Assembly: GCA_903827955.1 (NCBI GenBank)
Contig: CAIKKJ010000038.1
Location: 1-44,044 of the forward strand
Direction of reading: 5' to 3'
Length of the DNA stretch: 44,044 nucleotides
Source: an uncultured Verrucomicrobia subdivision 3 bacterium
GTDB lineage: Bacteria; Verrucomicrobiota; Verrucomicrobiia; Limisphaerales; UBA11358
Shown here: positions 301 through 39,192 of the stretch, piece after piece
Numbering within the stretch: position 1 is the first letter of the stretch
Layout of the letters: each line of letters starts with the position of its first letter
Position numbers and translations under genes: made by a program
Notes under the pieces: model-generated
The model's database searches: none
What the model saw: the letters and a program-made list of their open reading frames with translations, nothing else
Told to the model about the DNA's origin: nothing

Positions 301-348
301 CAGAAGAAGTTGTTGTTTTCAAAAATCATCCGCTTAAGCTTTCGCTCG

Positions 349-1947
349 GTGAAAAGAATTTTTGCAATTTTGTTTTTCGCCCTGTTCGTGGCGCGTCCCG
401 CGTCCGCGCAGCCGCTCACGCTGGCCGACGTGCAGCAAATCATCGCGCAGGCCGTCAGCCGCGCCACCAATCTTCCCGCGCCGCTCAAGACCAATGCCGT
501 CGTCGCCGTGACCGACCGCGAAGGCTGGGTGCTCGGCGTGTGGGCGGTGAACACGAATCTTTCGACCAACGACACGCTCATCGGCGAAGCCGTCGCCAAG
601 GCGGGCACGGCGGCGTTTTTGAGCAGCGGGCAAAACGCGTTTTCCACGCGCACCGCCGGCTTCATCGTGCAGCAACATTTTCCGCCAGTCGCGGACAACA
701 CACCGCCCGGGCCGCTCGTGGGCGTGAATTTTTCGCAGCTCGCGTTTTCCGACATTAACAAATACAAGGCGCCCGGCAGTGTCACCAACTACGGTTGTTC
801 GCCCGCGACCAACACCATCGCGCCGCCTTTGCCCATCACCGGCGGCCTCGAAGGCACGCCCGGCGGCCTGCCGCTCTACAAAAACGGCACGCTCGTCGGC
901 GGCATCGGTGTGGCGGGCAACGGCGTTTCGCCCTTGGGAATTTCGCCAACCCTCATCGCCAATGCCGACAGCGATGAAGACGCGGCGCTCGCGGGACAAA
1001 TTGGATTTGCGCCGTCGCCGAAAATTTTCGGCTCCGAAGCTCTGGTCGCGGGACTCCGGCTGGAATATATCGAAAGTTCCACCAGCCTCGGCGCAGTGAT
1101 TTCGTTCGGTAATTTGCCGGGGGAAAATATTTCGCCCTACACGCTCATCGCCTCACCCACGCCATTTAATTATCCGGTGAAAACGATGGGCGGCGTCACC
1201 GGCGAATTGCGCCAACCCATCACCGACGATCCGCTGCTGCACGACGCCGACCCGAACAATGACACTATCAACGGCGCGGCGCGGCTCACGGAACTTGAAG
1301 TCTCCAACATCCTCGCCACCGCCGCGAACCGTGCCCGCACTACGCGCGCCGGGATTCGTCTGCCGCGCGGTGTGGCGATGCAAGTCTTCATCACCGTTGT
1401 CAACAATCCCAATTCCAACGGCGTGCCGCCGACGGTGCTAGGAACGTTTTGCACCTCGCCGGACACGACGCGGTTTAGTTGGGATGTGTCGGTGCAAAAG
1501 GCTCGCACGGCAGTTTTCTTTTCCGCGACGAACCGCGCTTACTCCGCGCGCACCGTCGGCTTTCTCGCGCAAAGTTTGTATCCGCCCGGCATCAACGGCA
1601 CGGCGCCCGGATTATTTTTCGGGATGCAGGAACGCTTTTCCATCATCACGCCGACCGCATTTACGGCGACCAATCCCGTGAACGGCGCGGTCTTCACCAC
1701 TTCGACGAACGTGAATCCCAACCTGCCGAACGGCATCACGATTTTCCCCGGCGGCTTTCCGCTGTATCGCAACGGAATTCTCATCGGTGCCATCGGCGTG
1801 AGCGGCGACGGTATTGATCAAGACGACCTCGTGGCCGCCAGTGGTGCGGCAGTTTTTTTGCCGCCGATTCCCATCCGCGCCGACCAGACGCAATATCGCG
1901 GTGCGCGGCTGCCGTTTGCCAAATTTCCGCGCAACCCGGCGATGTAA
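349..1947 (+). CDS. Secreted protein with two GlcG/HbpS (DUF336) domains
   Basis: The GTG at 349 gives a compact signal peptide (M-K-R-I-F-A-I-L-F-F-A-L-F-V-A-R-P-A-S-A, then Q). In-frame TTG codons at 310 and 313 would add 13 or 12 residues before it. The mature protein has two copies of the GlcG/HbpS fold. Copy one starts just after the signal peptide and copy two begins around residue 310. Each copy has an S-x-x-N-x-x-(F/Y)-S-(T/A)-R-T-x-G-F block and ends in a glycine-rich strand, GGLPLYKNGTLVGGIGV in copy one and GGFPLYRNGILIGAIGV in copy two. Single-domain relatives bind haem or corrinoid-like ligands, or are linked to glycolate metabolism. Haem binding by this protein is not shown. It is more than three times the usual single-domain length because of the duplication and linkers. 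It has no obvious operon partner. Confidence 0.75.
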   Translation: MKRIFAILFFALFVARPASAQPLTLADVQQIIAQAVSRATNLPAPLKTNAVVAVTDREGWVLGVWAVNTNLSTNDTLIGEAVAKAGTAAFLSSGQNAFSTRTAGFIVQQHFPPVADNTPPGPLVGVNFSQLAFSDINKYKAPGSVTNYGCSPATNTIAPPLPITGGLEGTPGGLPLYKNGTLVGGIGVAGNGVSPLGISPTLIANADSDEDAALAGQIGFAPSPKIFGSEALVAGLRLEYIESSTSLGAVISFGNLPGENISPYTLIASPTPFNYPVKTMGGVTGELRQPITDDPLLHDADPNNDTINGAARLTELEVSNILATAANRARTTRAGIRLPRGVAMQVFITVVNNPNSNGVPPTVLGTFCTSPDTTRFSWDVSVQKARTAVFFSATNRAYSARTVGFLAQSLYPPGINGTAPGLFFGMQERFSIITPTAFTATNPVNGAVFTTSTNVNPNLPNGITIFPGGFPLYRNGILIGAIGVSGDGIDQDDLVAASGAAVFLPPIPIRADQTQYRGARLPFAKFPRNPAM

Positions 1948-7384: not shown

Positions 7385-8761
7385 ATGAAAGCCATCAACC
7401 CCCTGAACGTCGCGCGCAGCCTTGCCACTTTCATGCTCGCGCTAAATCATTCAACGGTTTCCGCCGGGGTCACCACCAATGCGCAGTTGAACCTGGCAAA
7501 AACTAGTGGCTCCACACTCAGCCTGAACATCAGCAACGCGGCCAATCAGGTCTGGGTCATGCAAAGTTCCAGCAACCTCACCAGTTGGACGACGGTAGAA
7601 AGCCTGAAAGTGTTCAACGGCCTTTACCATCGCAGCTACACCAACAGCGCGGGCAACAGTGTTTTCTACCGCGCCTACTTTGATGGCGCAGGCCAGAACA
7701 TCGCCAGCCTGACCACGAATGCATTGCAGCTGCCGGCGACGAATTACAACTACGCCGCGCCGGTGTTGCCGACCAATTTTCTCGTGAACCCCATCCTCGC
7801 CGAGGACAACACGCCCGCCAACAACACCAACACGGACGCCGGTGCGATGCTTGGCCGGGCGCTGTTCTACGACCGTCGGCTTTCGACGAACCAGACGATT
7901 GCGTGCGCCTCATGCCATCAGCAGGCGCATGGTTTTTCCGACCCGCGCCAGTTCAGCGTAGGTTTCGATGGCAGCGTGGGCACGCGAAATTCCATGGGCT
8001 TGAGCAATGCCCGCTGGTATCAGCGGAAACATTTTTTCTGGGATGAACGCGCCAACACCTTGGAAGACCAGACGCTAATGCCCATCCAAAACCCGATTGA
8101 AATGGGCATGACGCTCGGCGCGCTCACCAACCGCCTCGCCGCCGAGCCATTTTACACCAATCTGTTCGCGCAGGCTTTTGGTTCAACCGACGTGACGACG
8201 AACCGCATTTCCCGCGCGCTGGCACAATTCGTCCGCTCCATCGTCACGACGCAATCGAAATATGACCTTGGCCTGACGAATAATTTTGCGAACTTCACCG
8301 CGCAGGAAAACACCGGACGGCAAATCTTCTTCGGGCAAAACGGCAGCCGCGCCACCTGTGCGCTCTGCCACCTCACGGATAATTTTGTGCAAACGGGCGG
8401 CATTGACAACAACGGGCTGGAGTTTCCCTACGTGGACACCGGCATCGGCGGCATCACGGGTAACGCGGGGGACATGGGCAAGTTCAAAGTGCCGTCGCTG
8501 CGGAATATCGAGCTGACCGCGCCCTATATGCACGACGGCCGGTTCACGAATCTCGAACAGGTCGTGGAGTTCTACAATTCCGGCGTGGTCTTCAACGCCA
8601 ACCTCACACCGCCGTTGCGGGCGGCAGGCGGCAACAGCGCGTTGCGCCTGAACCTGACCGCCGACCAGAAGACTGCGCTCGTAGCGTTCCTCAAAACGCT
8701 CACGGACACAAACCTCGCAAACGACGTGAAATTGTCCGACCCATTCAACTACGGCAATTGA
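7385..8761 (+). CDS. Di-haem cytochrome c peroxidase/MauG family protein with N-terminal accessory module
   Basis: A 458-residue secreted protein with a signal peptide (about 1-27). Residues 30-100 are an accessory module of the type seen at the C-termini of other secreted proteins here (V-M-Q-S-S-S-N-L-T-S-W, then F-Y-R-A-Y-F). The catalytic part begins near 130. It has C-A-S-C-H at 174-178 for the first haem and C-A-L-C-H at 325-329 for the second, and A-P-Y-M-H-D-G-R-F around M382, a possible axial ligand loop. Family members reduce peroxide with electrons from cytochromes or carry out MauG-like oxidations in the periplasm. Which reaction this one performs cannot be read from sequence. The extra N-terminal module is unusual for the family. 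ATG at 7385 gives a complete signal peptide. Confidence 0.88.
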   Translation: MKAINPLNVARSLATFMLALNHSTVSAGVTTNAQLNLAKTSGSTLSLNISNAANQVWVMQSSSNLTSWTTVESLKVFNGLYHRSYTNSAGNSVFYRAYFDGAGQNIASLTTNALQLPATNYNYAAPVLPTNFLVNPILAEDNTPANNTNTDAGAMLGRALFYDRRLSTNQTIACASCHQQAHGFSDPRQFSVGFDGSVGTRNSMGLSNARWYQRKHFFWDERANTLEDQTLMPIQNPIEMGMTLGALTNRLAAEPFYTNLFAQAFGSTDVTTNRISRALAQFVRSIVTTQSKYDLGLTNNFANFTAQENTGRQIFFGQNGSRATCALCHLTDNFVQTGGIDNNGLEFPYVDTGIGGITGNAGDMGKFKVPSLRNIELTAPYMHDGRFTNLEQVVEFYNSGVVFNANLTPPLRAAGGNSALRLNLTADQKTALVAFLKTLTDTNLANDVKLSDPFNYGN

Positions 8762-28523: not shown

Positions 28524-30632
28524 CTATTTGGCATCCATCTTCCAAATCCCATTCCACTGCGCCGGCGGATGCGCAAGCAGCTCCGCGCAGCGCGCCGCGA
28601 GGGTTTTGCTCGCGCCGTCGGAAAATTCCTGGGCGAGCAATTCAAACTTCACCTTTGCCTCGGCGAACCTGCCAAAAAAGTATTCGTCGTAAGCCGACTT
28701 GTAGCGCGGGCAAATCTCGGCGTAGTTCGCCGGCGTGCAGGGATTCTCGCACTCGAACAATTCCACCGGCTCGCTCTTACCTTTCACAATGACGCGGTCA
28801 ATCAACCGCCGCGCGCTCGGCGCGGTGAACTGTGCGATTGCGTCGCGCGTGACGAGCAGCTTTACGCCGTAGTATTTCGTGAGCGATTCCACGCGCGCCG
28901 CTTCGTTCACCGTGTCGCCCACGAGGCCGTAGTCGAGGCGCAGCGCGGAACCTTTGTTGCCCACCAGCACACCGCCCGCGTGCAACGCCACGCCGTAGCC
29001 GAAAATTTTCTGCACATCTGCCGGCAGCGTGGCGCGCAACTCCTCCATCGCGTGAATCAACTTCATCGCGGCGCGTGCGGCGCGGTCGGCAGCGTCAGGC
29101 TGCTTCTGCGGCGCGCCCCAGTAGCTCAAAAACTGGTCGCCGAGAAAATGTTCCAAGTTGCCTTCCTCGCCCATGATCGCGCCGGTCTGCGCCTCAAAAA
29201 CTTTGTTGAGCAGCTCGAACATTTTTTTTGGGCCGAGCAATTCCGCCAGCGGCGTGGAGTTGCGCAAATCGGTGAGCAATAAAACCACGTCGGCGCGGCG
29301 CGGCTGCATGGAGCCGGGATCCGACAAAACCGCGTCCAGCACGCGCGGCGAAAAATACAGACCCATCGTGTGCTTGAGCTTCATGCGCTCCAGCCGCTCG
29401 GTGACAAAATCATAAACCAGCGCGCCGAGGCCAATGGTAATGAGCACCAAGAGCGGGCTGACGACGGAGACAATCGTTCCCGCCAACCCAAACAGGAGAA
29501 ATGAAGCGACAAAAAATCCGGCGCTCAAAACCAAAACCACCACCAGTCGTTTGAGCGGCACGCGGATGAACTGGCACAGCACCGCGCCAATCAAACCCGC
29601 CAGCGCAACGAGCGCGCCGGCGGCGAGCGGCGGGAGTTCGCGTAAAAATTCGCCGCGCAGCGCGGCGTTGATGATGTGCAGATGGATTTCCGGGCCGGGC
29701 ATCTCGCTGCGGAACGGCGTGCGGTGCGTGTCTTGAAAGATGTTCGCCGTCGGCCCAATGAGCACCAGCTTGTCTTTGAAAAATGCGCCGCCGCCAAAAT
29801 TATGCGTCCAGATTTTCGGCGTCAGCACGTCGCCGAGCGGGATGACCGGCCACGTTCCCGGCGGACCGGTGAAGCGGATTTTCTGGCGCGTGTTGACGGT
29901 GGGAAGCTTTTCCGCCGCGCCGAATTTTTCCAGCGCGCGGGCGTCGAAGGAATTCACGACGGTGCCGGGCTGGGTGTTCACCGGATCGCCGAGCTCATGG
30001 TTGGTCGCGCGGAAACAGGCGCGCCGGAAAATGTCGTCGTCGTCCGGCCAGATGTTGATGTAGCCCACGCGCGGATTGAGCGCGGCGGGCTGACCGGCGG
30101 CGTCGGGAATCAGATTCGCGTTGGGCGTGGTCAATTTGCCCGGCTCGCCGCGATCCGTTTCGCCGAGCGTGTAGTTCGCGCCGATGACCACTCGATCCCC
30201 GTATTTGTCGAGCGCGGCGCGGAGTTCCTCATCGCCGTCTGCGTCGGCGGCAAAGACCAAATCAATGGCGATGACCTTTGCGCCCGCTTCCGCGAGGCGA
30301 GTGATGGCGGCGGCCCAGACCTTGCGCGACCACGGCCAGCGTTCGCGTAGCGCGGCGAGCACGGGATCGCGTTTGTCCTCATCCGTGATAAAAACATCGT
30401 CGTAGCTGGGCCGGTCAATGCCGACGAGCACGAGGTTGGTATTGGCGGGCGTGTAGCGGCCATTGCGGGCGAACAGGTCATGGACGTAGTTATCGGCATC
30501 CACCAGCGGCGAGCGCAACCACGCCGGGGCAAGGAAATCCAGCGCCAGCACCGCGAGCGTCGCGGCCACGCACAGGCCGACGAGCCGCAAGGCGCGGATT
30601 TTTTCAACCGTGCTGGATTTTTTGCGGGACAT
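28524..30632 (-). CDS. CHASE2-domain class III nucleotide cyclase
   Basis: ATG at 30632 gives 702 residues and a clean N-terminus; upstream in-frame codons to 30704 would overlap the divergent FecR gene. TM1 (about 16-34), extracytoplasmic CHASE2 sensor (about 40-330), three helices (about 333-410), then the cyclase domain (about 445-605). Catalytic metal acids are D455 (T-D-L-R-N-S-T) and D499 (L-G-D-Q-F), with N576 and R580 in N-E-A-A-R. The base-recognition Lys usually found four residues before the second Asp is H495 here, while D567 (L-D-Y) is kept. Adenine versus guanine choice is therefore uncertain. Divergent from a FecR protein, a pairing also seen in other bacteria. Confidence 0.9.
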   Translation of the reverse strand: MSRKKSSTVEKIRALRLVGLCVAATLAVLALDFLAPAWLRSPLVDADNYVHDLFARNGRYTPANTNLVLVGIDRPSYDDVFITDEDKRDPVLAALRERWPWSRKVWAAAITRLAEAGAKVIAIDLVFAADADGDEELRAALDKYGDRVVIGANYTLGETDRGEPGKLTTPNANLIPDAAGQPAALNPRVGYINIWPDDDDIFRRACFRATNHELGDPVNTQPGTVVNSFDARALEKFGAAEKLPTVNTRQKIRFTGPPGTWPVIPLGDVLTPKIWTHNFGGGAFFKDKLVLIGPTANIFQDTHRTPFRSEMPGPEIHLHIINAALRGEFLRELPPLAAGALVALAGLIGAVLCQFIRVPLKRLVVVLVLSAGFFVASFLLFGLAGTIVSVVSPLLVLITIGLGALVYDFVTERLERMKLKHTMGLYFSPRVLDAVLSDPGSMQPRRADVVLLLTDLRNSTPLAELLGPKKMFELLNKVFEAQTGAIMGEEGNLEHFLGDQFLSYWGAPQKQPDAADRAARAAMKLIHAMEELRATLPADVQKIFGYGVALHAGGVLVGNKGSALRLDYGLVGDTVNEAARVESLTKYYGVKLLVTRDAIAQFTAPSARRLIDRVIVKGKSEPVELFECENPCTPANYAEICPRYKSAYDEYFFGRFAEAKVKFELLAQEFSDGASKTLAARCAELLAHPPAQWNGIWKMDAK

Positions 30633-30694
30633 GGCGGATTTGACAATGGTTGGCCGCTGGCGTAAAATTGCGTTGAAATTAGTCGCCTTCCAAA
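30633..30694. promoter_or_regulatory. Divergent promoter region between cyclase and FecR genes
   Basis: Only 62 bases separate the two start codons, so both promoters overlap here and are probably co-regulated. AT-rich blocks GTAAAATTG and GTTGAAATTAG lie upstream of the FecR start. On the other strand TTGTCAAATCC lies just before the cyclase ATG. No operator repeat was seen. Confidence 0.45.
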
Positions 30695-31552
30695 ATGAAA
30701 ACAAACCTTCTTATTTGCGCCGCGCTGGCGCTGGTGAATTTTTCCGCCGTGGCCGCGCCGCTCACGGAAAGCACCTTCACCGAAATCATCCGCGACGTGA
30801 ACACGCTCACGACCGCCGGCAATCCGACGACGGCGAAGCTGAATGATTTGCTGAAGTCGCCCGACCGCGTCCGCACCGGGCCGGAGTCGCGAGCCGAACT
30901 CACGGCGGCAGATAACACCCTCACAAGGGTCGGCGCAAACACGGTGTTTTCATTTTCCGACAGCGGTCGCACGCTGAATCTGGAGCAGGGCAATTTGTTA
31001 TTTCATTCACCCAAAGGCAACGGCGGCGGCACCATCAAATCCGGCGGCGCGAGCGCAGCGGTTTTGGGCACAACGCTGATTGTTTCCGCGACGACCGACG
31101 GCGGATTCAAAGTGATTTTGCTCGAAGGCAAAGGCACGGTGACCTTGGCCGACGGAAAAGCCATGACGCTGAAATCCGGCCAGATGGTTTTCGTCCCACC
31201 CGGCGGAAAAACTTTCAGCCACGTGGTGAACTTCAACCTGGGCAAGCTCGTCGCTGGCTCCAGTTTGATTAACGGCTTTGCCCATCCGCTCGTGTCGTTG
31301 CCACTGATTGAAGCGGCGATTGACCGGCAAAATTCTTTGATCGCGAAAGGTGAGGCGGTCGACACCGGCAATCTGGCGGGCAACGGCCTCGGAACCGTGG
31401 ATCATGCCGGTTACCAGACCGCCGCGCGCCCGCCGGTGGACAAGCAGCAATACACCGTGCTTTCCACGGCAGCCATCACCGGCGGTCCGGGGGGACGCAA
31501 CACCGGCGGTCCGGGGGGACGCAACATTACCACGTTAACTTTCATTCCGTAA
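30695..31552 (+). CDS. FecR-domain secreted protein
   Basis: 285 residues with a signal peptide (about 1-20, cleaved after A-V-A). The FecR beta-structure spans about 40-170: D-R-V-R-T-G-P-E-S-R-A-E-L, V-G-A-N-T-V-F-S-F, L-L-F-H-S-P-K and G-G-A-S-A-A-V-L-G-T-T-L-I-V, ending G-x-V-x-V-x-x-x-G repeats. It lacks the inner-membrane helix of the classical sigma-factor regulator FecR, so it is one of the free secreted FecR proteins of unknown function. The C-terminus carries a duplicated G-G-P-G-G-R-N-T unit. It is followed after 18 bases by an outer-membrane barrel gene and is divergent from the CHASE2 cyclase, suggesting an envelope-sensing unit. Confidence 0.85.
   Translation: MKTNLLICAALALVNFSAVAAPLTESTFTEIIRDVNTLTTAGNPTTAKLNDLLKSPDRVRTGPESRAELTAADNTLTRVGANTVFSFSDSGRTLNLEQGNLLFHSPKGNGGGTIKSGGASAAVLGTTLIVSATTDGGFKVILLEGKGTVTLADGKAMTLKSGQMVFVPPGGKTFSHVVNFNLGKLVAGSSLINGFAHPLVSLPLIEAAIDRQNSLIAKGEAVDTGNLAGNGLGTVDHAGYQTAARPPVDKQQYTVLSTAAITGGPGGRNTGGPGGRNITTLTFIP
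31477..31524 (+). repeat. Perfect 24-base tandem duplication in the FecR gene
   Basis: Two identical 24-base units (31477-31500 and 31501-31524), beginning CACCGGCGGTCC, encode two G-G-P-G-G-R-N-T units near the C-terminus. Identity of the copies and the in-frame length point to recent slippage, so copy number may vary between strains. Confidence 0.85.
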
Positions 31553-31570
31553 AACCGGCTTTTGAATTTC

Positions 31571-32587
31571 ATGAAAAAAATTCTTATTTGTGTTTCACTC
31601 TTTGCCGTCGCCGCCGTGGTGCGCGCGCAAAACCCCGCCGCCAACCAGCAAGCCGACGCATGGCGTTTTCATCAGCAGTTGTCCGCCCCGCTGTTTGCGA
31701 CCAACGCCGCGCCGGAACTTTACAGCGGCGAGACCAGCGACGTCGGCCCGCAAAGCCTACTGCAACTCAAGCCGCGCCGCCGGTGGGTCGAGGCGTCTGC
31801 CGATGTGCAGTTGTTTTACACCGACAACGTTTTTCTGTCCGACCAGCAGCGCCAGTCTGCCAACGTCCTCGTCAGCACCGTCGAAGCCGCGCTCGCACCG
31901 ACGGACATTGAAGTGCATGGCGGCCAGCTCGCGCCGCGCCTCGGCTACCAGCATCAATGGTTCAATTACGGCCTTCTGGGCAGCGATGAGTTTCTCACCG
32001 CCTCGTTCAATCCGACCGCGATTGTCTCGAATACGATGAGCCGCTTTGATTTCAATGTGCAGACCATTTTTGCCGACACCACGTGGAACCGTGGCGGCTG
32101 GGAATTTTCTCTGGGCGTGGATTACCGGCGCTTTCTTGATTCCAGCAGCTACGATGAATTTTACCGCGAAATCGTCCCGCGCATCGCTGCCCGCTACACC
32201 TTTCAGCTTGCGGAAAACAAATCCATCACGCTGGGTTACGAAGGCGACTTCCGCGCCACGCGCACCATCAATCCCATTGTGGGGAACGGAGACAGCTACA
32301 ACGACCGCGCCGACCAAAGCTTCGTGCTCATCGGCAACTGGCAGCTTTGCGCGCACGCCAGCTTGCAGCCGTTTTACCGCCTGCAATATTCCTATTTCAC
32401 CAGTAACAATCCCGGCCGCACCGACTGGCAAAACACCGTTGGCCTCGTCGTCAATTTGCCGATCACCCGCAACATTGCGCTGCGCGTCTTCACCAGCTAC
32501 GACACCCTTTCCACGGATGGCGCGTTTGTGACGAACTACGAAAAATTTGACCTCGGCGGCGGGCTGAATCTCTCCGTGCGGTTTTGA
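31571..32587 (+). CDS. Outer-membrane beta-barrel protein
   Basis: ATG at 31571 starts a signal peptide (M-K-K-I-L-I-C-V-S-L-F-A-V-A-A-V-V-R-A-Q); an in-frame TTG lies 3 codons upstream. The 338-residue protein shows alternating aromatic and polar beta-strands throughout: A-D-V-Q-L-F-Y-T-D-N-V-F, L-G-Y-Q-H-Q-W-F-N-Y, F-S-L-G-V-D-Y-R-R-F. It ends in L-G-G-G-L-N-L-S-V-R-F, whose terminal Phe is the usual beta-barrel assembly signal. No transport substrate can be assigned. It is likely co-transcribed with the FecR gene 18 bases upstream. Confidence 0.8.
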   Translation: MKKILICVSLFAVAAVVRAQNPAANQQADAWRFHQQLSAPLFATNAAPELYSGETSDVGPQSLLQLKPRRRWVEASADVQLFYTDNVFLSDQQRQSANVLVSTVEAALAPTDIEVHGGQLAPRLGYQHQWFNYGLLGSDEFLTASFNPTAIVSNTMSRFDFNVQTIFADTTWNRGGWEFSLGVDYRRFLDSSSYDEFYREIVPRIAARYTFQLAENKSITLGYEGDFRATRTINPIVGNGDSYNDRADQSFVLIGNWQLCAHASLQPFYRLQYSYFTSNNPGRTDWQNTVGLVVNLPITRNIALRVFTSYDTLSTDGAFVTNYEKFDLGGGLNLSVRF

Positions 32588-32618: not shown

Positions 32619-34196
32619 TTAACGCGCGAGTAGCGGCTTGTGGTAAGTGTGGCACTCCGCGCAAGTATCCGCCACGCCGCCGCGCGGACTGTGGCAAACC
32701 GCGCAAGTTTCACGCGCCGGCAATAAAATGTCGGCCGTGTCCTTGCTGTGCACCGCGTCATGGCACGTCGCGCAGGCGACGTTCAGATGTTTTGCGTGGT
32801 TGAATTTCGCCTGCGCCAGCCAGCGTTCCACCTGCACCGGCTTCGTGATTTGCGCCGCCCCTGCTGCTGACGTTTTCACCTCATGGCAATATGCGCAGCC
32901 CGGAAACAGTGACCGCGTCGCGCCGCTCAAAGTTCCGATCTGCGCCTCCGGCCCGAACGTCGCCGTGCTAAAAAAGACGCGCTGCTCCAGCGCTTCGCCG
33001 TCGCCAAATTGCATCCGCAGGCCTGCGAGTTTCTTCGCGGCAAAGTCATTGGCGTCCGCTGAACCCAACTTCATCGCCAAATCCAAATACTGCTTCGGCA
33101 AACTCCGCAGATATGCCGACACGAAATCCACATTTCCGTGCGGTAGTTGCAACTGCGGCGTCTCCGGGTCGAATTGCAGCGAATGGCACACGCGACAGTT
33201 TTTCTCAAACGCCACGGGTTTCATCAATGCGCCCGTCGCATCCGGTTGATGGCAGAACACACAGTCCAGTTTTTCTCCACCGGGTAACTTGGGAATCGTC
33301 GTGCCGGTCAGGTGCAGCGCGTGATTGAATTTCAACGAATCCGGATCGCGCAATTTTTCCGTGATAAATTTGAACTGCGGATGATCGTCCGCAAAATGAT
33401 GAATGACCGGCGGCGGCGGATTGTTGTAGCGCGGAACAACGGCCATTTTTGCCACGTCGCCGTGGCAGAAGCTGCAGCTCGCATCTGTCGTCGCTGCTAT
33501 CACTTTGCCCTGGTGTTCCGCGTGACAGAACGAACAGGAAATCTGCGGCGCGTTCGGCTGATGCACGTTCCGGCCCGAGTGACATTTCAAACACGATGAA
33601 TCAATCGCCGTCGGCTCCTCCGCTTTTGCGAGCGCGAGTTTTTTCAGATCAAAAACTCCAGGATCGGCACGCAGCGCAGCATGAATCATCGGATTCGGAC
33701 CGGAATTTCCCGCGACGTGACACGCGCCGCAGCTTTGGTTTAGATGATTCGTTGACGCCAGCGCCGCGAACGCCGCGCCGGAATGCGGATCGGAAACAAC
33801 TCCGGGACTGATGAAATTATTTCGCCACGGCGGATTACCCAGAATGACCAGCAGCACCCCGCACGACGCGGCGACCACCGCCAGCGTGATGCGTCCGCGC
33901 CATAAACGCAGCGTCGGCACGGGCGAACATTTCGGAATAGGCTTGCAGCAGCTTCCATCCGGCAGCGGGCCGAATTCACATTCACCGCCGGTCCGCGTGC
34001 AAACCCAGCGACCTTTCGTTTCGCCTTCTTTTAATTTCAGGACCGGTTTGCACTCGGCGGTCGCGCGGCAATTTCCCTTTTGATCAGGGCCGAGCCGGCA
34101 CGCATTGCCATCGCAGGCGTGGCCGCAGATGTAATTTTGATTTGGCCGCGCGTAATTCTGCGCATCAAAATCCGGCGCTGGCAATTGCTCACTCAT
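32619..34196 (-). CDS. Membrane-anchored decahaem cytochrome c with duplicated N-terminal Cys motif
   Basis: The ATG at 34196 overlaps the upstream gene by 4 bases and gives 525 residues. There is no signal peptide. Residues 24-90 form a Cys-rich domain with ten Cys. It contains two copies of C-x-(L/F)-G-P-x3-G-x-C-(x5-6)-C-x-P-V (33-52 and 73-93). One membrane helix follows (about 103-120). The rest is periplasmic and holds ten C-x-x-C-H haem sites: CGACH, CLKCH, CSFCH twice, CVFCH, CRVCH, CAYCH, CATCH, CAVCH and CAECH. The haem part resembles the cytochrome c3/c7-like multihaem group. As last gene of the four-gene redox operon, it is the likely periplasmic exit or entry for electrons. The partner and direction are unknown. 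Confidence 0.85.
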   Translation of the reverse strand: MSEQLPAPDFDAQNYARPNQNYICGHACDGNACRLGPDQKGNCRATAECKPVLKLKEGETKGRWVCTRTGGECEFGPLPDGSCCKPIPKCSPVPTLRLWRGRITLAVVAASCGVLLVILGNPPWRNNFISPGVVSDPHSGAAFAALASTNHLNQSCGACHVAGNSGPNPMIHAALRADPGVFDLKKLALAKAEEPTAIDSSCLKCHSGRNVHQPNAPQISCSFCHAEHQGKVIAATTDASCSFCHGDVAKMAVVPRYNNPPPPVIHHFADDHPQFKFITEKLRDPDSLKFNHALHLTGTTIPKLPGGEKLDCVFCHQPDATGALMKPVAFEKNCRVCHSLQFDPETPQLQLPHGNVDFVSAYLRSLPKQYLDLAMKLGSADANDFAAKKLAGLRMQFGDGEALEQRVFFSTATFGPEAQIGTLSGATRSLFPGCAYCHEVKTSAAGAAQITKPVQVERWLAQAKFNHAKHLNVACATCHDAVHSKDTADILLPARETCAVCHSPRGGVADTCAECHTYHKPLLAR

Positions 34197-35008
34197 CGCG
34201 CACCTCCTGAAAAACCGAAGACGAGGACGATGTGCAGCGCCGTGAAAATCATCAGCCCGTAGGTCAGCGGAATGTGAACGAACAGCCACAATCGCAACGC
34301 GAGTTGGAGCGCGCGGTGATAATCCAATCCGTCCTTCTGGCGGACGAGCGCGGTGAGTTTCTCAATCTTTTCCTTTTCCGTGTCGTTGGCGAAACGGCGC
34401 AAATCTTCCAACTCGGCGAGCAGCGCATTGACGGCGCGCCGCGATTCAACGATATGCTTCCAGAAATTTTTTGGGTCGGTGAAAAATGAGGCGAGTCGCT
34501 TCGTGTAGAATTCCGCGATGACCACGGATTTTGTATCCGTGCCGAGCGACAATGTTTCCGCCTCGGTTTTCAGAGCGTGGCGCAACGCGGGAATTTTTTC
34601 AAAAATGACTTCGCCGCCGCGCGTCGCCAACCGGCGCGGCAGCACGCGGCTGAAAAAAAGTCCGACTATGCCGCTGCCGCTGACCAGCACGAACAGCCAC
34701 GCGAGCGTGATCTCAAACCAGCCGTGCGGCGCGCGGAAATTCAGATGGATGAGAAACAGCAACGTCGTGAAAAAGCCGAGGTATATGTGGATCTGCAGCC
34801 ACGTCTCGGATTTGCCGAGCGGCAGGAACGGCAGTTTTTTGCGGACGTTGTAGATCGTCAGCACGAACATCCCTGCGAGTAGCGCCCAGCCGGTCAAGTA
34901 AGCGTAGTTCGGTAGCGCGTTGTATTTCGCATTCAGCCACAACGCTCCCGCCGTCGCGGCAAGCAGCGCGAACAGGCCGAAAAAAAGTTGGCGGCGAAAA
35001 CGGTTCAT
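34193..35008 (-). CDS. Small membrane protein with two H-x13-H pairs, putative di-haem cytochrome b
   Basis: 271 residues; the ATG at 35008 overlaps the upstream stop (ATGA). Five hydrophobic helices are visible: about 7-25, 38-54, 71-90, 98-119 and 238-264. H74 and H88 lie in the third helix and H245 and H259 in the fifth, each pair 14 residues apart. That is the spacing that holds two stacked b haems in bc1-type cytochrome b. A charged soluble segment of about 115 residues (121-236, rich in Glu, Lys and Arg) sits between helices four and five. I recognise no named family. The gene lies between the Fe-S protein and the decahaem cytochrome, so it could carry electrons across the membrane. That is inference. 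Confidence 0.75.
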   Translation of the reverse strand: MNRFRRQLFFGLFALLAATAGALWLNAKYNALPNYAYLTGWALLAGMFVLTIYNVRKKLPFLPLGKSETWLQIHIYLGFFTTLLFLIHLNFRAPHGWFEITLAWLFVLVSGSGIVGLFFSRVLPRRLATRGGEVIFEKIPALRHALKTEAETLSLGTDTKSVVIAEFYTKRLASFFTDPKNFWKHIVESRRAVNALLAELEDLRRFANDTEKEKIEKLTALVRQKDGLDYHRALQLALRLWLFVHIPLTYGLMIFTALHIVLVFGFSGGAR

Positions 35009-36729
35009 AACTTCAACCACTTCGACAGCGAGTCCAGATTGTTCAAGTTCATTCGCGTAAGCGCGCCGTGCGGGCAGGCGCGTTCGCAGGACGGACCGCC
35101 GTGATTTTCTACGCAAAGGTCGCACTTGGTCGCCTTGGCGATGGGTTTCATTTCCTGATCCACTAGCAGTTCGCCGCGTTCGTCGCGGACCTCGACCATG
35201 CGGATGGCGTCGTAGGGACAGTTTGTGAAACAGGATTTGCAGCCGATGCACGTCGCGGGATTGATGACGACCTGACCGGCGAACGACTCGCGATGAATCG
35301 CGCCGGTCGGGCAGCCGATCATGCAGACGGGGTCGGCGCAGTGCATGCAGGCGTTGGCGATCATCAGCCGCCCGGCGCTCGGCCCGTGACGCAGGAAGCG
35401 CGGATTGTTGTCGTGCGTGGAGGCGCAGGCGCGCACGCAATCGTCGCAGCGCGTGCAGCGGTCGAGGTCAATGACCATCGTGGCCGTGCCGTTGAAGAAA
35501 CGGTTCTCGGTGAGAAATTCCAAAACTTCCGCGCCGACTTTCTCACGCGCGGCGGTTTCCGGCGGCGCGGAATCTGAATCATCCTCGCGCTTCTCGATGA
35601 GCGGCGGCAGTTCGTTTTTTGGCAGCGATGGCAGAACAATCTCTTCCATCACGCGCGTGGGCACGATGAGCAAATGCGTGTAGCCGATGGCGCGGAGCGA
35701 GAATTGAAAATTCACCGGCGCGTCTTTCTTGCGCCAGTTGTGGGCGATTTCGTTCAGCCCGAAAATCTGTCCTGCGCCGATGTAGTTCAACGTGCGCTCG
35801 CCGCCACCGAATTTTTGCGAGACACGCGCGAAGCCGGCACGCAGCAGCACGATGCCGTTTGGATAATCGCCTTCGCCAACAATGACGGGCTCTTTCTCTG
35901 GGCGCACGCTGCCGGACTGCGCGAGGCGTTTGTATTCGCCCGACCAGTCGTAGTCGCCAAACGTGGAAAATTCCACAGCCTCGGCCACGGTCGCGAGCTG
36001 CTCCTTGGACAAATTTTTGAACAGCGGCGTGGCGCGGAGATACGAGGCCAGCGCGCGTTCACGGTAAATTTTGTTGATGTGCGTGCGCAACGCGTCGTCA
36101 TACTTCATCAGGTCGCGCAAACCCTGCCAGCGGACTTCGAGCAATTCGGTATCGTCGGCGTCGGCAAAAATCGTGGAGGTGCGCGCCATGCGGCTCAACG
36201 CGGCGATCTCGCCGAAAAATTCGCCGGTCGTCATCTGCTCGGTGCGGTATTTGTCCAGCACGCGCGGAACGTCCTGAAGAAAAACGTGAACCTGATCGTC
36301 TTCCTGCCGCGCGCCGAGACCGGAATTTTCTCCGCGTAGTTTGCTCGAAAGAACTTCCGCCGGGCGCGAGCCGTTCCAGAGTTGTGCGAGGGTGCGGAAA
36401 ATTCCTTTTTTGTTCGTCGCCTGACGGCCGAGCAACGATGGCGGGAGGTCTGGCTTGAGCACCACGCGCGCCGCACCTTGCAAAATCAAAAATGCCGACG
36501 TGCCGTAGTCGCCCTGGCGCATGATGATTTCGCCCTTGCGCAGCTTGAGGATGCGCATGTCGTTGCGGATGATTTCGCGGAGCGGCGTGCGCTTGGGAAA
36601 TTTTTCCGCGTCCATTTTGCTGAACGGCGCGGTGAAGAGGAGACGCGTGACGTCATCCTCGGTCATGTTCGCGTCAAACGCCGCATCCCAGCGTTGCGGG
36701 CGTTCGAGGATGGTTGGGGCGGCGGGCAT
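35005..36729 (-). CDS. Tandem cyclic-nucleotide-binding folds fused to a four-cluster [4Fe-4S] ferredoxin
   Basis: 574 residues, no signal peptide, so cytoplasmic. The first cNMP-binding fold (about 55-205) has G-E-I-I-M-R-Q-G-D and a cassette F-G-E-I-A-A-L-S-R-M-A-R-T-S, but about 70 residues are inserted in the middle (about 93-165). The second (about 235-358) has V-G-E-G-D-Y and G-A-G-Q-I-F-G-L-N-E but lacks the cassette Arg. The C-terminal part (415-560) has 16 Cys in DmsB/HybA-like spacing for four [4Fe-4S] clusters: 425/428/431/435, 461/464/469/473, 494/497/500/504 and 536/539/548/552. It probably relays electrons between the FAD reductase upstream (1-base gap) and the membrane b-type protein downstream. 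Confidence 0.9.
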   Translation of the reverse strand: MPAAPTILERPQRWDAAFDANMTEDDVTRLLFTAPFSKMDAEKFPKRTPLREIIRNDMRILKLRKGEIIMRQGDYGTSAFLILQGAARVVLKPDLPPSLLGRQATNKKGIFRTLAQLWNGSRPAEVLSSKLRGENSGLGARQEDDQVHVFLQDVPRVLDKYRTEQMTTGEFFGEIAALSRMARTSTIFADADDTELLEVRWQGLRDLMKYDDALRTHINKIYRERALASYLRATPLFKNLSKEQLATVAEAVEFSTFGDYDWSGEYKRLAQSGSVRPEKEPVIVGEGDYPNGIVLLRAGFARVSQKFGGGERTLNYIGAGQIFGLNEIAHNWRKKDAPVNFQFSLRAIGYTHLLIVPTRVMEEIVLPSLPKNELPPLIEKREDDSDSAPPETAAREKVGAEVLEFLTENRFFNGTATMVIDLDRCTRCDDCVRACASTHDNNPRFLRHGPSAGRLMIANACMHCADPVCMIGCPTGAIHRESFAGQVVINPATCIGCKSCFTNCPYDAIRMVEVRDERGELLVDQEMKPIAKATKCDLCVENHGGPSCERACPHGALTRMNLNNLDSLSKWLKL

Positions 36730-36730
36730 T

Positions 36731-38041
36731 TTAGGCGTCCAACACGAGGTCGTTCTTCGGACGGCACACGCAAGTCAGACACGTTCCTGCATCGGGCGTG
36801 GTGTCGGGCTTCTTGAGGTAGGTTACATCGCCGGATTTCATCGCGACGACGCACGAACCGCAACTGCCCGCGCAGCAGCCGGAATCAATCTTAACGCCCT
36901 GCGCCTTGGCGAACTCCAATATATTTTCCGCTGACGGTTCCCAGCGCACGGTCTTGCCGGAGCGCGCGAAGGTGACCATGACTTTTTGCAGATGCGTCGT
37001 CTCGGCCTGCGTCGGCACGGCGGCTTTTTTCTTCACCGTCGCGGGGCCGAACGCCTCGAAGTGAACGACGCTATCCGGCACGCCCCACGCTTCGAGGCCG
37101 TCGGTCAAACTTTTCATGAATGCGCCGCTGCCGCAGAGGTAATATTCAAAATTATTCGACGGCAACACTTCCTTCAAAAGCTCAATGCCCACGCGGCCTT
37201 CGTGCTGATAATCTTTGCCCTTCACGTCTTTCTCGCTCGGCTTGCTGTAGGCGATGTGCAAATGAATGTTGTCGTTTTCCGCCGCCAGTTTTTCCAGTTC
37301 CGCCTTGTGAATATGCTCGCGGACATTGCGCACGCCGAAGAAAAAATACGCCTCGCGCTTCGAGCCGCTCGCGGCGATGGCATTGGCCATGCACAACATC
37401 GGCGTGATGCCCACGCCGCCGGCGAGCAGCACGATGGGATTCATCTTGGTCATGTCCAAAAAGAAATGGCCGGTCGGCGCCTTGACGTTCAGGATGTCGC
37501 CTTCCTTCACCACGTCGGTGAAAAAACTGGAGCCGGCGCCCGGCGGCAACTCTGGTTTGTCTGGCGGCGATTTTTCCTTTTTGATCGTGACGCGGTAAAA
37601 ATCTTTTTTGCCATCGTTGCAATCTGAGAGCGAGTAACAACGGATGAGCGGCTTGTCGCGTCCGGGCAAATCCAATTGAAAAGTCAAATACTGGCCGGGC
37701 TTGAACGGCGGCAGCGAGCGACCGTCGTGCGGCTTGAGGTAGAAGGCGTTGACGTCGTCACATTCATTGGCCTTTTTCGTGACGGCAAATTTGCGGATGC
37801 CATTCCAGCCAGACTCAGCCTGTGCGGCGGACTGGCAGCGGAGCTTGGTCTCGGTGAGCTGGGCGCGGAGTTTTTCCAGCGCGACACGCTGCTGTTTGTT
37901 CTCGGCGAAGGTGCGGAGCAGCGAGCGGAAAATTTCCACCGCCAGCCACGCGAGCAGTCCAGCCAGCAGCGCAAAGCCGGCAGCGAAGCTCAAACTGCCT
38001 CCGCTGACACCGCGCAGGGAATCAATTAGGGTTGCGTTCAC
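36731..38041 (-). CDS. Membrane-anchored FAD/2Fe-2S NAD(P)H oxidoreductase (NqrF/ferredoxin-reductase-like)
   Basis: 436 residues from a GTG. One N-terminal membrane helix (about 15-38), a coiled stretch (45-75), then a ferredoxin-NADP reductase module. FAD-binding R-C-Y-S at 134-137, the pyridine-nucleotide loop G-G-V-G-I-T-P at 208-214 and C-G-S-G at 303-306 are visible. The C-terminus is a plant-type 2Fe-2S ferredoxin with C389, C394, C397 and a fourth Cys at 424 (or 426). NqrF has the opposite order, with its ferredoxin domain N-terminal. Here the order is reductase then ferredoxin, as in PaaE or flavohaemoprotein-like enzymes. It is the first gene of the redox operon and the probable NAD(P)H entry point. 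Confidence 0.9.
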   Translation of the reverse strand: MNATLIDSLRGVSGGSLSFAAGFALLAGLLAWLAVEIFRSLLRTFAENKQQRVALEKLRAQLTETKLRCQSAAQAESGWNGIRKFAVTKKANECDDVNAFYLKPHDGRSLPPFKPGQYLTFQLDLPGRDKPLIRCYSLSDCNDGKKDFYRVTIKKEKSPPDKPELPPGAGSSFFTDVVKEGDILNVKAPTGHFFLDMTKMNPIVLLAGGVGITPMLCMANAIAASGSKREAYFFFGVRNVREHIHKAELEKLAAENDNIHLHIAYSKPSEKDVKGKDYQHEGRVGIELLKEVLPSNNFEYYLCGSGAFMKSLTDGLEAWGVPDSVVHFEAFGPATVKKKAAVPTQAETTHLQKVMVTFARSGKTVRWEPSAENILEFAKAQGVKIDSGCCAGSCGSCVVAMKSGDVTYLKKPDTTPDAGTCLTCVCRPKNDLVLDA

Positions 38042-38070
38042 GCTGCTATTCCATTAACCAATTTGTCGCC
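38042..38070. promoter_or_regulatory. Very short divergent promoter region of the redox locus
   Basis: Only 29 bases separate the GTG starts of the reductase gene (minus) and the tetrahaem cytochrome gene (plus), and the AT-rich core ATTCCATTAACCAATTTG must serve both. Promoters of the two units must overlap each other or the facing gene's 5' end, so they are probably regulated together. Confidence 0.4.
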
Positions 38071-39192
38071 GTGAGTAAAACAATTTGTCACTCCATCATC
38101 GCAGGACTGCTATTGGCCGTGGCGGCGACGCGCGGCGCGGACTTATCCACAGTGAAATTTCTCGGCGCGTCATCCTGCGCCAGTTCCGGCTGCCACGGCG
38201 GCGGCGGCCTGAAGCAAAACCAGTTTCTCGTCTGGTCGGTCAAAGATTTTCATTCGCAGCGTCCCACCGCCACGCTCACTACCGCGCGCGCCAAGCAGAT
38301 CGCCGAGGCGCTGGAGATCAAAGACCCAACCACCGACGCACGCTGCACGACGTGCCACGCGCCGTTGCATGACGTGGCGGAACATTTGCGCGGAGAAAAC
38401 TTCAAGGTGAGCGAAGGCGTTTCGTGCGAAAGCTGCCACGGCGCGGCAGAGAATTGGCTGCGTTCGCACACGCGGCACGATTATACCCGCGCTGACCTCA
38501 CGGTGGCGGGAATGCGCGATTTACAAAATCTTTATGTCCGCGCGAACACTTGCGTCGCGTGTCATCAGGTGGTTTCGCAACCGCTGCTCAAGGCGGGGCA
38601 TCCGGAATTAATTTTTGAACTGGATGGTCAAAGCGTCGCCGAGCCGAAACATTGGAGCGCAGAGAAAAATGACAACGGCGCGCAGACGTGGCTCGTCGGG
38701 CAGGCGGTGGCGTTGCGGGAATTGATTTGGCAGATGACCAGAGAACATCCCATGACGGACCACGCGCAACGGATGACGGAGACAAATCTGTTGGAGCGCA
38801 TCTCCGCGCTTTCGTGGTTACTGCACAAGGCCACCGGCGAACAACTTTCCCCGACAACGTTGATGGAGGATTTTGAATCCTACCAGCGCAATGCCGACAA
38901 GCTCGCACAGGAAAAGTCCGCTGCGGCCTGGTCGGAGCAAATGACGCATGATTGCCTGACAGGACTGGCCGCACTCGCTCCGGATTTTCTGGACCAGAAA
39001 ATTCCGGTTTCAATGCACGCCCGCCGCGCCGAGCGCTTGGTGCTCGCGCTTGACCGTTTACTCGCGGCGGAAAACAACCACCAGGCCGACGCAGAGCTGA
39101 ACCAGCTTTTCAAACTCGCGCAATCCATCCCTGACTTTGACGCAAAACAATTTTCCGCCGCGCTGGAAAAATTTTCCGCCGCCTTGAAGTGA
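38071..39192 (+). CDS. Periplasmic tetrahaem cytochrome c554-like protein
   Basis: The GTG at 38071 gives a clean signal peptide (about 1-23, S-I-I-A-G-L-L-L-A-V-A-A-T-R-G-A); an upstream start at 38032 would run into the divergent gene. The 373-residue protein has four c-haem sites: an unusual C-A-S-S-G-C-H (C-x4-C-H) at 36-42, C-T-T-C-H at 92-96, C-E-S-C-H at 119-123 and C-V-A-C-H at 161-165. The arrangement resembles the cytochrome c554 family, which shuttles electrons in nitrogen oxidation and other pathways. After residue 190 the protein is helical with no further haem. It may exchange electrons with the decahaem protein encoded divergently. Confidence 0.85.
   Translation: MSKTICHSIIAGLLLAVAATRGADLSTVKFLGASSCASSGCHGGGGLKQNQFLVWSVKDFHSQRPTATLTTARAKQIAEALEIKDPTTDARCTTCHAPLHDVAEHLRGENFKVSEGVSCESCHGAAENWLRSHTRHDYTRADLTVAGMRDLQNLYVRANTCVACHQVVSQPLLKAGHPELIFELDGQSVAEPKHWSAEKNDNGAQTWLVGQAVALRELIWQMTREHPMTDHAQRMTETNLLERISALSWLLHKATGEQLSPTTLMEDFESYQRNADKLAQEKSAAAWSEQMTHDCLTGLAALAPDFLDQKIPVSMHARRAERLVLALDRLLAAENNHQADAELNQLFKLAQSIPDFDAKQFSAALEKFSAALK

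Follow-up and report, generated by a model that had tools for sequence, protein, structure and literature searches.

A conserved flavoprotein and multihaem cytochrome module of Verrucomicrobiota, related to the predicted PCC4 system, as a candidate route for electron export

Results

Gene organisation of the module

We analysed a 44,044-nt stretch of DNA (the window; contig CAIKKJ010000038.1 of assembly GCA_903827955.1) from an uncultured Verrucomicrobia subdivision 3 bacterium, which carries a five-gene electron-transfer module. Four consecutive genes on the minus strand encode a flavin adenine dinucleotide (FAD)/[2Fe-2S] reductase, a CRP-like protein with four [4Fe-4S] clusters, a five-helix membrane protein and a decahaem cytochrome c, referred to as FAD, CRP, MEM and DECA when gene order is described. 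A gap of 1 base separates FAD from CRP, and the CRP/MEM and MEM/DECA junctions overlap by 4 bases each. On the plus strand, a tetrahaem cytochrome gene runs from a GTG start at 38071 to a stop at 39192 and diverges from the reductase start at a distance of 29 bases. These coordinates and junctions reproduce the four-gene run and the divergent c554-like gene described in the original prediction. The ligands are confirmed as well, with 10 + 4 motifs for haem, 16 cysteines for the clusters and the H-x13-H pairs, and they are conserved in relatives. As it had stated, no catalytic subunit is recognised in the locus.

The reductase as electron input

The reductase (36731..38041, minus strand) is the predicted entry point of electrons. 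Pfam matches to FAD_binding_6, NAD_binding_1 and Fer2, together with a hydrophobic stretch at residues 12–43 near the N terminus, bear out the earlier description of a membrane-anchored FAD/2Fe-2S reductase, in which the plant-type [2Fe-2S] domain is C-terminal. The closest solved relatives are the reductase domains of flavohaemoglobins (E 1.9e-50). Residues R134/Y136/S137, G209/G211/T213/P214 and C389/C394/C397/C421 are each kept in at least 95% of 61 sequences.

Two assignments to known enzymes were rejected. As subunit F of the Na+-translocating NADH:quinone reductase (Na+-NQR), the protein scores 103.9 bits against an equivalog cut-off of 295, and its Fer2 domain is C-terminal here. As a nitric oxide-inducible flavohaemoglobin it scores 257 bits against a cut-off of 432; residues 70–336 align to profile positions 142–397, and the globin domain was not found. 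Among the matches listed (the best 25 of 31 for the reductase and the best 25 of 77 for the CRP/Fe-S protein), no NCBIfam cut-off is reached by any of the five proteins.

The CRP/[4Fe-4S] protein as electron hub

The CRP/[4Fe-4S] protein (35005..36729, minus strand) carries two cyclic-nucleotide-binding folds ahead of four [4Fe-4S] clusters, and may serve as both an electron hub and an allosteric switch. Pfam finds cNMP_binding in three stretches and several Fer4 families, including PF13247. The 16 cysteines predicted to bind the clusters each occur in 97–100% of 73 sequences. An assignment as the Fe-S subunit of a formate dehydrogenase/dimethyl sulfoxide reductase-type enzyme was rejected, with scores far below the cut-off among the matches listed.

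In the first cyclic-nucleotide (cNMP) fold, the phosphate-binding cassette (residues 169–186; 36172..36225, minus strand) contains G169, F172, G173, E174 and R183, each present in 73/73 sequences. In the cNMP family, E174 and R183 are the ligands of ribose and phosphate. No matching arginine was seen in the second cNMP fold. Judged by these residues, the first fold keeps an intact binding site in all 73 sequences, a feature that is new relative to the description of PCC4, the predicted gene cluster of He et al. 2017 (PMC5566968) with which the module is compared below. A cyclic nucleotide may therefore gate the electron step at this hub.

A possible source of the nucleotide is encoded nearby, by a CHASE2-nucleotidyl cyclase gene (28524..30704, minus strand; PF05226 + PF00211). 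The cyclase is suggestive as a source for the switch, but a gene related to it lies in only 10/83 loci and the genome holds six PF00211 matches; its membership in the module is doubtful. The intact site and the neighbouring cyclase would also suit a redox sensor, in which the cNMP folds and the Fe-S chain report redox state and carry no flux. We consider this highly improbable, since no output domain is recognised and a row of 14 c-type haem sites and five Fe-S centres fits flux better. A SAR324 locus (L111) has a CHASE2 gene upstream of its pentahaem gene c8 (see below), and a glutaminase-STAS-cNMP-binding fusion protein (L154:13734-15584) is encoded near a module of variant C, the variant defined below.

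The five-helix membrane protein

The membrane protein (34193..35008, minus strand) is a putative two-haem cytochrome b. It contains the motifs W70-x3-H74-x13-H88 and W241-x3-H245-x13-H259, and an SGIVG sequence at 112. Both W-x3-H-x13-H motifs are found in 69/70 sequences and SGxxG in 64/70, and the four histidines are each present in 99–100% of the 70. A third pair, H231-H245, fits the bare H-x13-H pattern, but H231 occurs in only 47% of these sequences. The sole Pfam relation is to DUF4405, below the cut-off (19.3 vs 26.7 bits), and no match to PF01794, the family of NADPH oxidases (NOX) and ferric reductases, was found at E 0.1.

In the AlphaFold2 model (predicted local distance difference test score, pLDDT, 90.7), H74/H88 and H245/H259 lie on two long helices, the third and the last transmembrane helices. 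This arrangement suggests two stacked haems, with H74/H245 on the cytoplasmic side and H88/H259 on the periplasmic side, given that the arginine-rich N terminus is inside. In structural comparison, the model matches cytochrome b561 (4o6y; Z 7.8, root mean square deviation (rmsd) 3.3, 139 aligned residues), superoxide oxidase (Z 6.8, rmsd 4.0, 136 aligned) and bacterial NOX (8qt6; Z 6.7, rmsd 5.5, 137 aligned), all of which are in keeping with this arrangement but within the noise for helical proteins.

The decahaem and tetrahaem cytochromes

The decahaem cytochrome c (32619..34196, minus strand) matches Pfam families of Cytochrome_C7/c3 type, and its ten CxxCH motifs are invariant among 22 aligned sequences. 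A hydrophobic stretch at residues 100–124 forms a predicted N-terminal membrane helix. Ahead of this helix, we notice a domain that had been missed earlier (33897..34196, minus strand). Its eight cysteines, in two halves of four (Cys 24, 33, 43, 49, 66, 73, 83 and 90; residues 24–90), are each present in 77/77 sequences of at least 480 amino acids. Four members gave no Pfam match for the domain at E up to 10. Because it precedes the membrane helix, the eight-cysteine domain is probably cytoplasmic, and by its sequence we regard it as an undescribed domain that is new here.

The domain varies among related systems. It is absent from the shorter decahaem protein of a variant C locus (L050), and in Sphingobium (plasmid pMSHV) it is replaced by a sub-threshold FHA/YscD-like domain. 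In Candidatus Uabimicrobium (L098:8032-9648), the reductase carries an N-terminal FHA domain. The FHA domain of the Uabimicrobium reductase, the FHA-like domain of the Sphingobium decahaem protein and the cysteine domain are possibly exchangeable docking domains.

The c554-type tetrahaem cytochrome (38071..39192, plus strand) has a hydrophobic, signal-like N terminus (residues 1–23) and matches Pfam Cytochrome_C554. Three of its haem motifs are CxxCH and the fourth is C-x4-CH. The same combination is found in 47 of 63 tetrahaem proteins, and 13 have four CxxCH motifs.

Conservation and variants of the module

Conservation was examined in the source genome with 58 relatives (59 genomes), in a second, overlapping set of 141 genomes of the class (threshold E 1e-60), and in the best 80 of at least 564 confirmed CRP relatives from genome contigs. 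The CRP/Fe-S protein is full length (>570 bits) in 18/59 genomes. At E 0.001, matches appear in 50/59 genomes; those that are not full length are partial and lower-scoring, mostly to the Fe-S part. The order FAD-CRP-MEM-DECA is kept in 18/18 genomes with the full-length protein. FAD is cut off by the contig end in L005 and by the end of the stretch in L015, where it lies ~1.2 kb from CRP; in L044 the reductase gene is likewise ~1.2 kb from CRP and non-adjacent.

Of the best 80 loci, 70 have FAD upstream of CRP on its own strand, and CRP is followed by MEM in 75 and by DECA in 77. The records are titled Verrucomicrobiota, Planctomycetota, Alphaproteobacteria, SAR324, Poribacteria and Mariprofundus, among others. 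Since the gene order is conserved across phyla, the locus is not a product of chance, and the module is real and widely conserved. Its cultured bearers include Verrucomicrobia bacterium IMCC26134 and Hwanghaeella grinnelliae, the latter not otherwise considered below.

Three variants were distinguished. In variant A, the type of the window, the tetrahaem gene is divergent (48/80 loci); the reductase heads the operon in 48/48 of these loci, with CRP followed by MEM in 45/48 and by DECA in 46/48. Of the exceptions, L051 and L071 break off close to the gene. In variant B (22/80 loci), the tetrahaem gene shares the strand of the other genes and sits either between FAD and CRP or on the upstream side of CRP. 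The other 10/80 loci fit neither type, mostly since the contig ends near the gene. In a tree of 53 sequences, thinned from a larger set, variant A forms one clade with support of 99/99. Variant C (eight loci: L050, L150-L156) has CRP-MEM-DECA and a decahaem protein that lacks the cysteine domain. The proteins of L050 are 25% (CRP), 22% (MEM) and 45% (DECA) identical to those of the window.

Some variant A records at 60–63% identity to the window are titled Proteobacteria, Klebsiella pneumoniae or Acetobacteraceae (L064, L072, L076, L108), titles that are probably wrong. Several other records, titled Akkermansia muciniphila (L066, L067, L086, L087), also look doubtful.

A different electron input is found on plasmid pMSHV of Sphingobium herbicidovorans, where the CRP/Fe-S protein bears an N-terminal Pyr_redox (thioredoxin-reductase-like) domain. 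Beside its gene lie relatives of the tetrahaem, decahaem and membrane proteins, and of the HbpS-like, barrel and LVIVD decahaem proteins introduced below, at 27–45% identity. One type of flavoprotein is thus swapped for an unrelated one, as expected for an NAD(P)H donor. In another genome (G113), an 837-amino acid CRP/Fe-S protein (L157:8704-11217) has an N-terminal 2Fe-2S domain (Fer2_4) and an extra 4Fe-4S part, and its gene adjoins one for argininosuccinate synthase. We rejected this protein as a further input swap, as no MEM, DECA or other cytochrome was found beside it.

Candidate outer-membrane partners

On another contig of the same genome (C197), two adjoining genes encode an AlgE-like barrel (c6) and a large decahaem LVIVD protein (c7; L133:4360-8193) with ten haem motifs. 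Among variant A loci, c6 is present in 26/48, c7 in 22/48 and c5, an HbpS-like protein, in 27/48. Variant B loci contain a pentahaem protein (c8) in 11/22, c9 in 11/22 and c5 in 3/22, with no c6 or c7; the assignment of c9 as a barrel comes from visual inspection. We rejected c6 and c9 as one family, because no similarity beyond E 2.7 was found between them.

In the 59 genomes, the module is present in 18, c6 in 19 and both in 17. The module occurs without c6 in G026 (81% complete, with a c7 fragment), and c6 without the module in G044 (57% complete) and in the variant C genome G058. Long matches to c7 were found in 21 genomes, including all 18 with the module; G005, G044 and G058 have c7 only. 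This tally started from 28 genomes at E 0.001, of which 7 were dropped for weak matches, mostly to the C-terminal repeat part. In the 141 class genomes, 14 have the module, 19 have c7 and 10 have both. Seven of the nine c7-only genomes in this set have variant C; G113 has a distant CRP/Fe-S protein unlinked to MEM or DECA, and in G104 (85% complete) no module was found. Ten class genomes without module and c7, examined as controls, gave no match. The co-occurrence of the module with the outer-membrane pair c6/c7 is new here, and the 'self-contained' locus of the original prediction is probably wrong.

The c6 model, with a mean pLDDT of 55 and confident mainly in its strands, is an outer-membrane barrel of 18 long strands that resembles AlgE (Z 25.4, rmsd 3.0, 354 aligned residues). 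For c7, the first three haem motifs are present in 22/23 sequences and the other seven in 23/23; no relative of known structure was found in the PDB at E 0.1. By eye, the c7 of this genome has no lipobox, and that of L113 has a possible one.

These partners bear on a second explanation, a periplasmic reductase system in which the c554-like protein or c7 itself would reduce a small molecule as the terminal enzyme, with no electrons leaving the cell. The Cytochrome_C554 match, a weak similarity to proteins of the nitrite reductase family, the missing lipobox of the genome's own c7 and the resemblance of c6 to the substrate channels AlgE/OprD all point this way. Nevertheless, no terminal-reductase domain is recognised in the partners scanned, and an outer-membrane barrel co-occurs with the module, so we judge a periplasmic reductase distinctly unlikely. 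That c7 has no PDB relative at E 0.1 speaks neither for nor against it.

Other genes in the window

The HbpS-like protein c5 (310..1947, plus strand; PF03928) is encoded 31 kb from the module here. It is 75% identical to the c5 near the module in L053, and members of its family adjoin the module in Sphingobium and at numerous Verrucomicrobiota loci; its membership here is weakly supported and tentative.

Between 28524 and 32587, genes for the CHASE2-cyclase, a FecR-domain protein and a 341-amino acid protein sit next to the module, as they do in several close relatives. We rejected them as parts of the module, as related genes occur in 10, 9 and 6 of 83 loci, respectively. The 341-amino acid protein (31562-32587) has no Pfam match, is convergent with the decahaem gene and is unlike c9 (E 1.6). 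A 458-amino acid frame at 7385-8761 carries two CxxCH motifs and is the sole other frame of the window (at least 60 amino acids) with such a motif.

Discussion

Proposed path and direction of electron flow

Our findings tip the balance toward an NAD(P)H-driven, quinone-independent export of electrons across the inner membrane to acceptors in the envelope or outside the cell. First, the anchored reductase would take a hydride from NAD(P)H on FAD and pass single electrons to its [2Fe-2S] cluster, as suggested by knowledge of the family and the conserved sites. The electrons would then enter the chain of four [4Fe-4S] clusters of the CRP-like subunit, where a cyclic nucleotide may gate them. Two stacked b haems, predicted from the conserved ligands, would carry them through the five-helix protein across the membrane, as in NOX and ferric reductases, to the membrane-anchored decahaem cytochrome. 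The cysteine domain of the latter probably docks the reductase or relays electrons from it, because both are absent in the eight variant C loci. Finally, electrons may leave via the tetrahaem c554-like protein and, in this lineage, as the co-occurrence suggests, the AlgE-like barrel c6 and c7 to a periplasmic or extracellular acceptor.

NADH has a potential of about -0.32 V. Export is the likely direction, since electrons would run downhill from NADH to haems or humics and the inside-negative membrane potential helps them outward. The original prediction had allowed the path to run in reverse. For a plain wire that ends at NAD(P)+, this is unlikely on thermodynamic grounds, because electrons moving from Fe(II) to NAD+ through the same wire would go uphill twice. 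We infer that, without a coupling ion, the path could work only as an exporter.

A fuller version of this proposal is possible though doubtful: a cyclic-nucleotide-gated, quinone-independent exporter in which NAD(P)H feeds the four-cluster hub, two b haems pass the electrons directly to multihaem proteins of the periplasm and the surface, the membrane potential assists the flow, and flavoprotein inputs as well as outer-membrane outputs are interchangeable across several phyla.

Evidence that weighs against NAD(P)H-driven export

Several observations weigh against NAD(P)H-driven export. The reductase gene does not accompany the module in the same way at every locus. In variant B it is on the other strand, or no reductase lies in the stretch, in 8/22 loci, and it is downstream in 1/22. 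In all eight variant C loci, no reductase gene was found in the stretch examined, so NAD(P)H may not be the donor in every variant; variant C may use other donors, or its reductase may be encoded elsewhere. The link between cysteine domain and reductase is similarly loose. All eight cysteines are retained in L117, L118 and L126, where the stretch examined contains no reductase, and L158 has a shortened cysteine domain with five cysteines and no reductase in 17 kb. The two tend to go together, not strictly.

The cytochrome b assignment of the membrane protein is also open to objection. Compared with solved structures, its sequence gave three matches, the best at E 0.19 and none a cytochrome; its model had no match in the PDB by Foldseek at E 0.001; and unrelated helical proteins outrank the cytochromes in the structural comparison.

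As for the outer membrane, the Fisher p values of ~1e-11 for module and c6 and ~2e-12 for module and c7 are uncorrected for kinship and thus overstated. G005, G044 and G104 have c7 without any module found. Four class genomes have the module, at ~50% identity, without c7. In three of these (L158-L160), the protein scores slightly better with that of variant B, two show a tetrahaem gene with four CxxCH motifs, and neither c8 nor c9 was found in the stretch examined. An 18-strand barrel is narrower than the Mtr barrel, and c6 may offer too little room for a multihaem wire. In that case c6/c7 would not form a conduit, and the role of c6 may instead be to anchor c7 or to export it. Moreover, the genome has four COX1 matches, so the module would not be its sole electron outlet.

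If NAD(P)H-driven export holds true, a route that starts at NAD(P)H and bypasses quinone, perhaps switched by cyclic AMP or cyclic GMP, would give cells another means of disposing of reductant. Bacteria with PCC4 would be reread as exporters rather than Fe(II) uptakers, and many uncultured Verrucomicrobiota and Planctomycetota would gain a testable link to humic and mineral redox chemistry.

Comparison with known systems

To our knowledge, the characterised multihaem export routes of Gram-negative bacteria start from quinol. In the CbcL-type quinol oxidases of Geobacter, a membrane b-type cytochrome is joined to a multihaem c-type protein, and we know of no flavoprotein, cNMP or four-cluster subunit in these systems. 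We rejected the module as a CbcL split in two, since CbcL has a quinol donor and no flavoprotein. In the NADPH oxidase/ferric reductase (FRD) family, NAD(P)H, FAD and two b haems carry electrons outward; we know of no Fe-S hub or multihaem partner in this family. Alternative complex III and Hmc/Tmc/Qrc were rejected because none of the five proteins is an NrfD-type subunit.

The comparison with PCC4 and other porin-cytochrome clusters draws on two papers of He et al. 2017 (PMC5566968 and PMC5615132). PCC4 is a predicted gene cluster, as opposed to a purified complex, in Zeta-, Gamma- and Alphaproteobacteria and Planctomycetes. Its parts are a porin, three multihaem cytochromes (4, 5 and 10 haems), an Fe-S gene (pfam13247) that precedes the gene for an inner-membrane protein, and one more redox gene. 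The inner-membrane protein has five helices, SGxxG on helix 4 and two W-x3-H-x13-H motifs on helices 3 and 5 (PMC5566968). PCC4 therefore contains the same kinds of part as the module, and the claim that no complex of such composition had been described does not hold. The transmembrane NAD(P)H:cytochrome c path proposed with it survives as the best reading of the gene set, with its order and ligands conserved. In the open literature beyond the two He et al. papers, the gene set was not found described; subscription papers and preprints lay outside this search.

The window agrees with PCC4 Subgroup II in the five helices, SGxxG and two W-x3-H-x13-H motifs of MEM. It also has 4- and 10-haem cytochromes and an Fe-S gene upstream of MEM, with a 4-base overlap and a PF13247 match above the cut-off (E 7.5e-9). 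It differs in that it has no pentahaem gene; searched with the c8 proteins, the window gives weak matches that fall on the tetrahaem gene. No porin is recognised beside the module, c9 has no match in the window, and the barrel c6 is on another contig. A possible counterpart of the PCC4 redox gene upstream of the tetrahaem gene is the FAD/2Fe-2S gene, which is divergent from the tetrahaem gene. The latter in turn uses C-x4-CH, and the electron source is read here as NAD(P)H, not quinone. Variant B fits the PCC4 description, with c8 and the candidate porin c9 in half its loci, in a comparison made by description only, not sequence.

A further point against NAD(P)H-driven export is that the published PCC4 model ties the inner-membrane protein to quinone (PMC5566968). 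On this model, the multihaem proteins would take up electrons from outside the cell, for example from Fe(II), and MEM would deliver them to the quinone pool, with the flavoprotein as a side branch. The motifs common to MEM and the PCC4 protein, W-x3-H-x13-H and SGxxG, agree with such uptake, as does a module in a metagenome-assembled genome titled Mariprofundus (L115). However, an NAD(P)H flavoprotein and a four-cluster chain, unneeded by a quinone reader, are core in most loci, and an unrelated flavoprotein domain substitutes in Sphingobium. Besides, variant A records are mostly titled Verrucomicrobiota, described in PMC5615132 as saccharide degraders, not Fe(II) oxidisers. We therefore regard quinone-linked uptake as unlikely. 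NAD(P)H is favoured over quinone because the reductase heads the operon, its FAD, NAD and Fe-S residues are conserved, and the flavoprotein is swapped in Sphingobium.

The inner-membrane protein of PCC3 likewise shows five helices and both histidine motifs, and it is reported to have no significant overall similarity to the PCC4 protein (PMC5566968). The cytochromes of PCC3 differ from those of the window; the five helices and histidine motifs are common to both. The Verrucomicrobia clusters of PMC5615132 are from the same phylum and place a porin next to multihaem genes. The genome of IMCC26134, a strain named there, contains module, c6 and c7 in one stretch (L090). The adjacent cytochrome in that paper has eight haem sites, and c7 and the decahaem protein each have ten. 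On the reading preferred here, the module corresponds to the inner-membrane half of predicted PCC4, in a form found here in Verrucomicrobiota. The window represents a related but distinct form of PCC4, the separate lineage of variant A, and its proposed NAD(P)H input is new relative to the quinone model of 2017.

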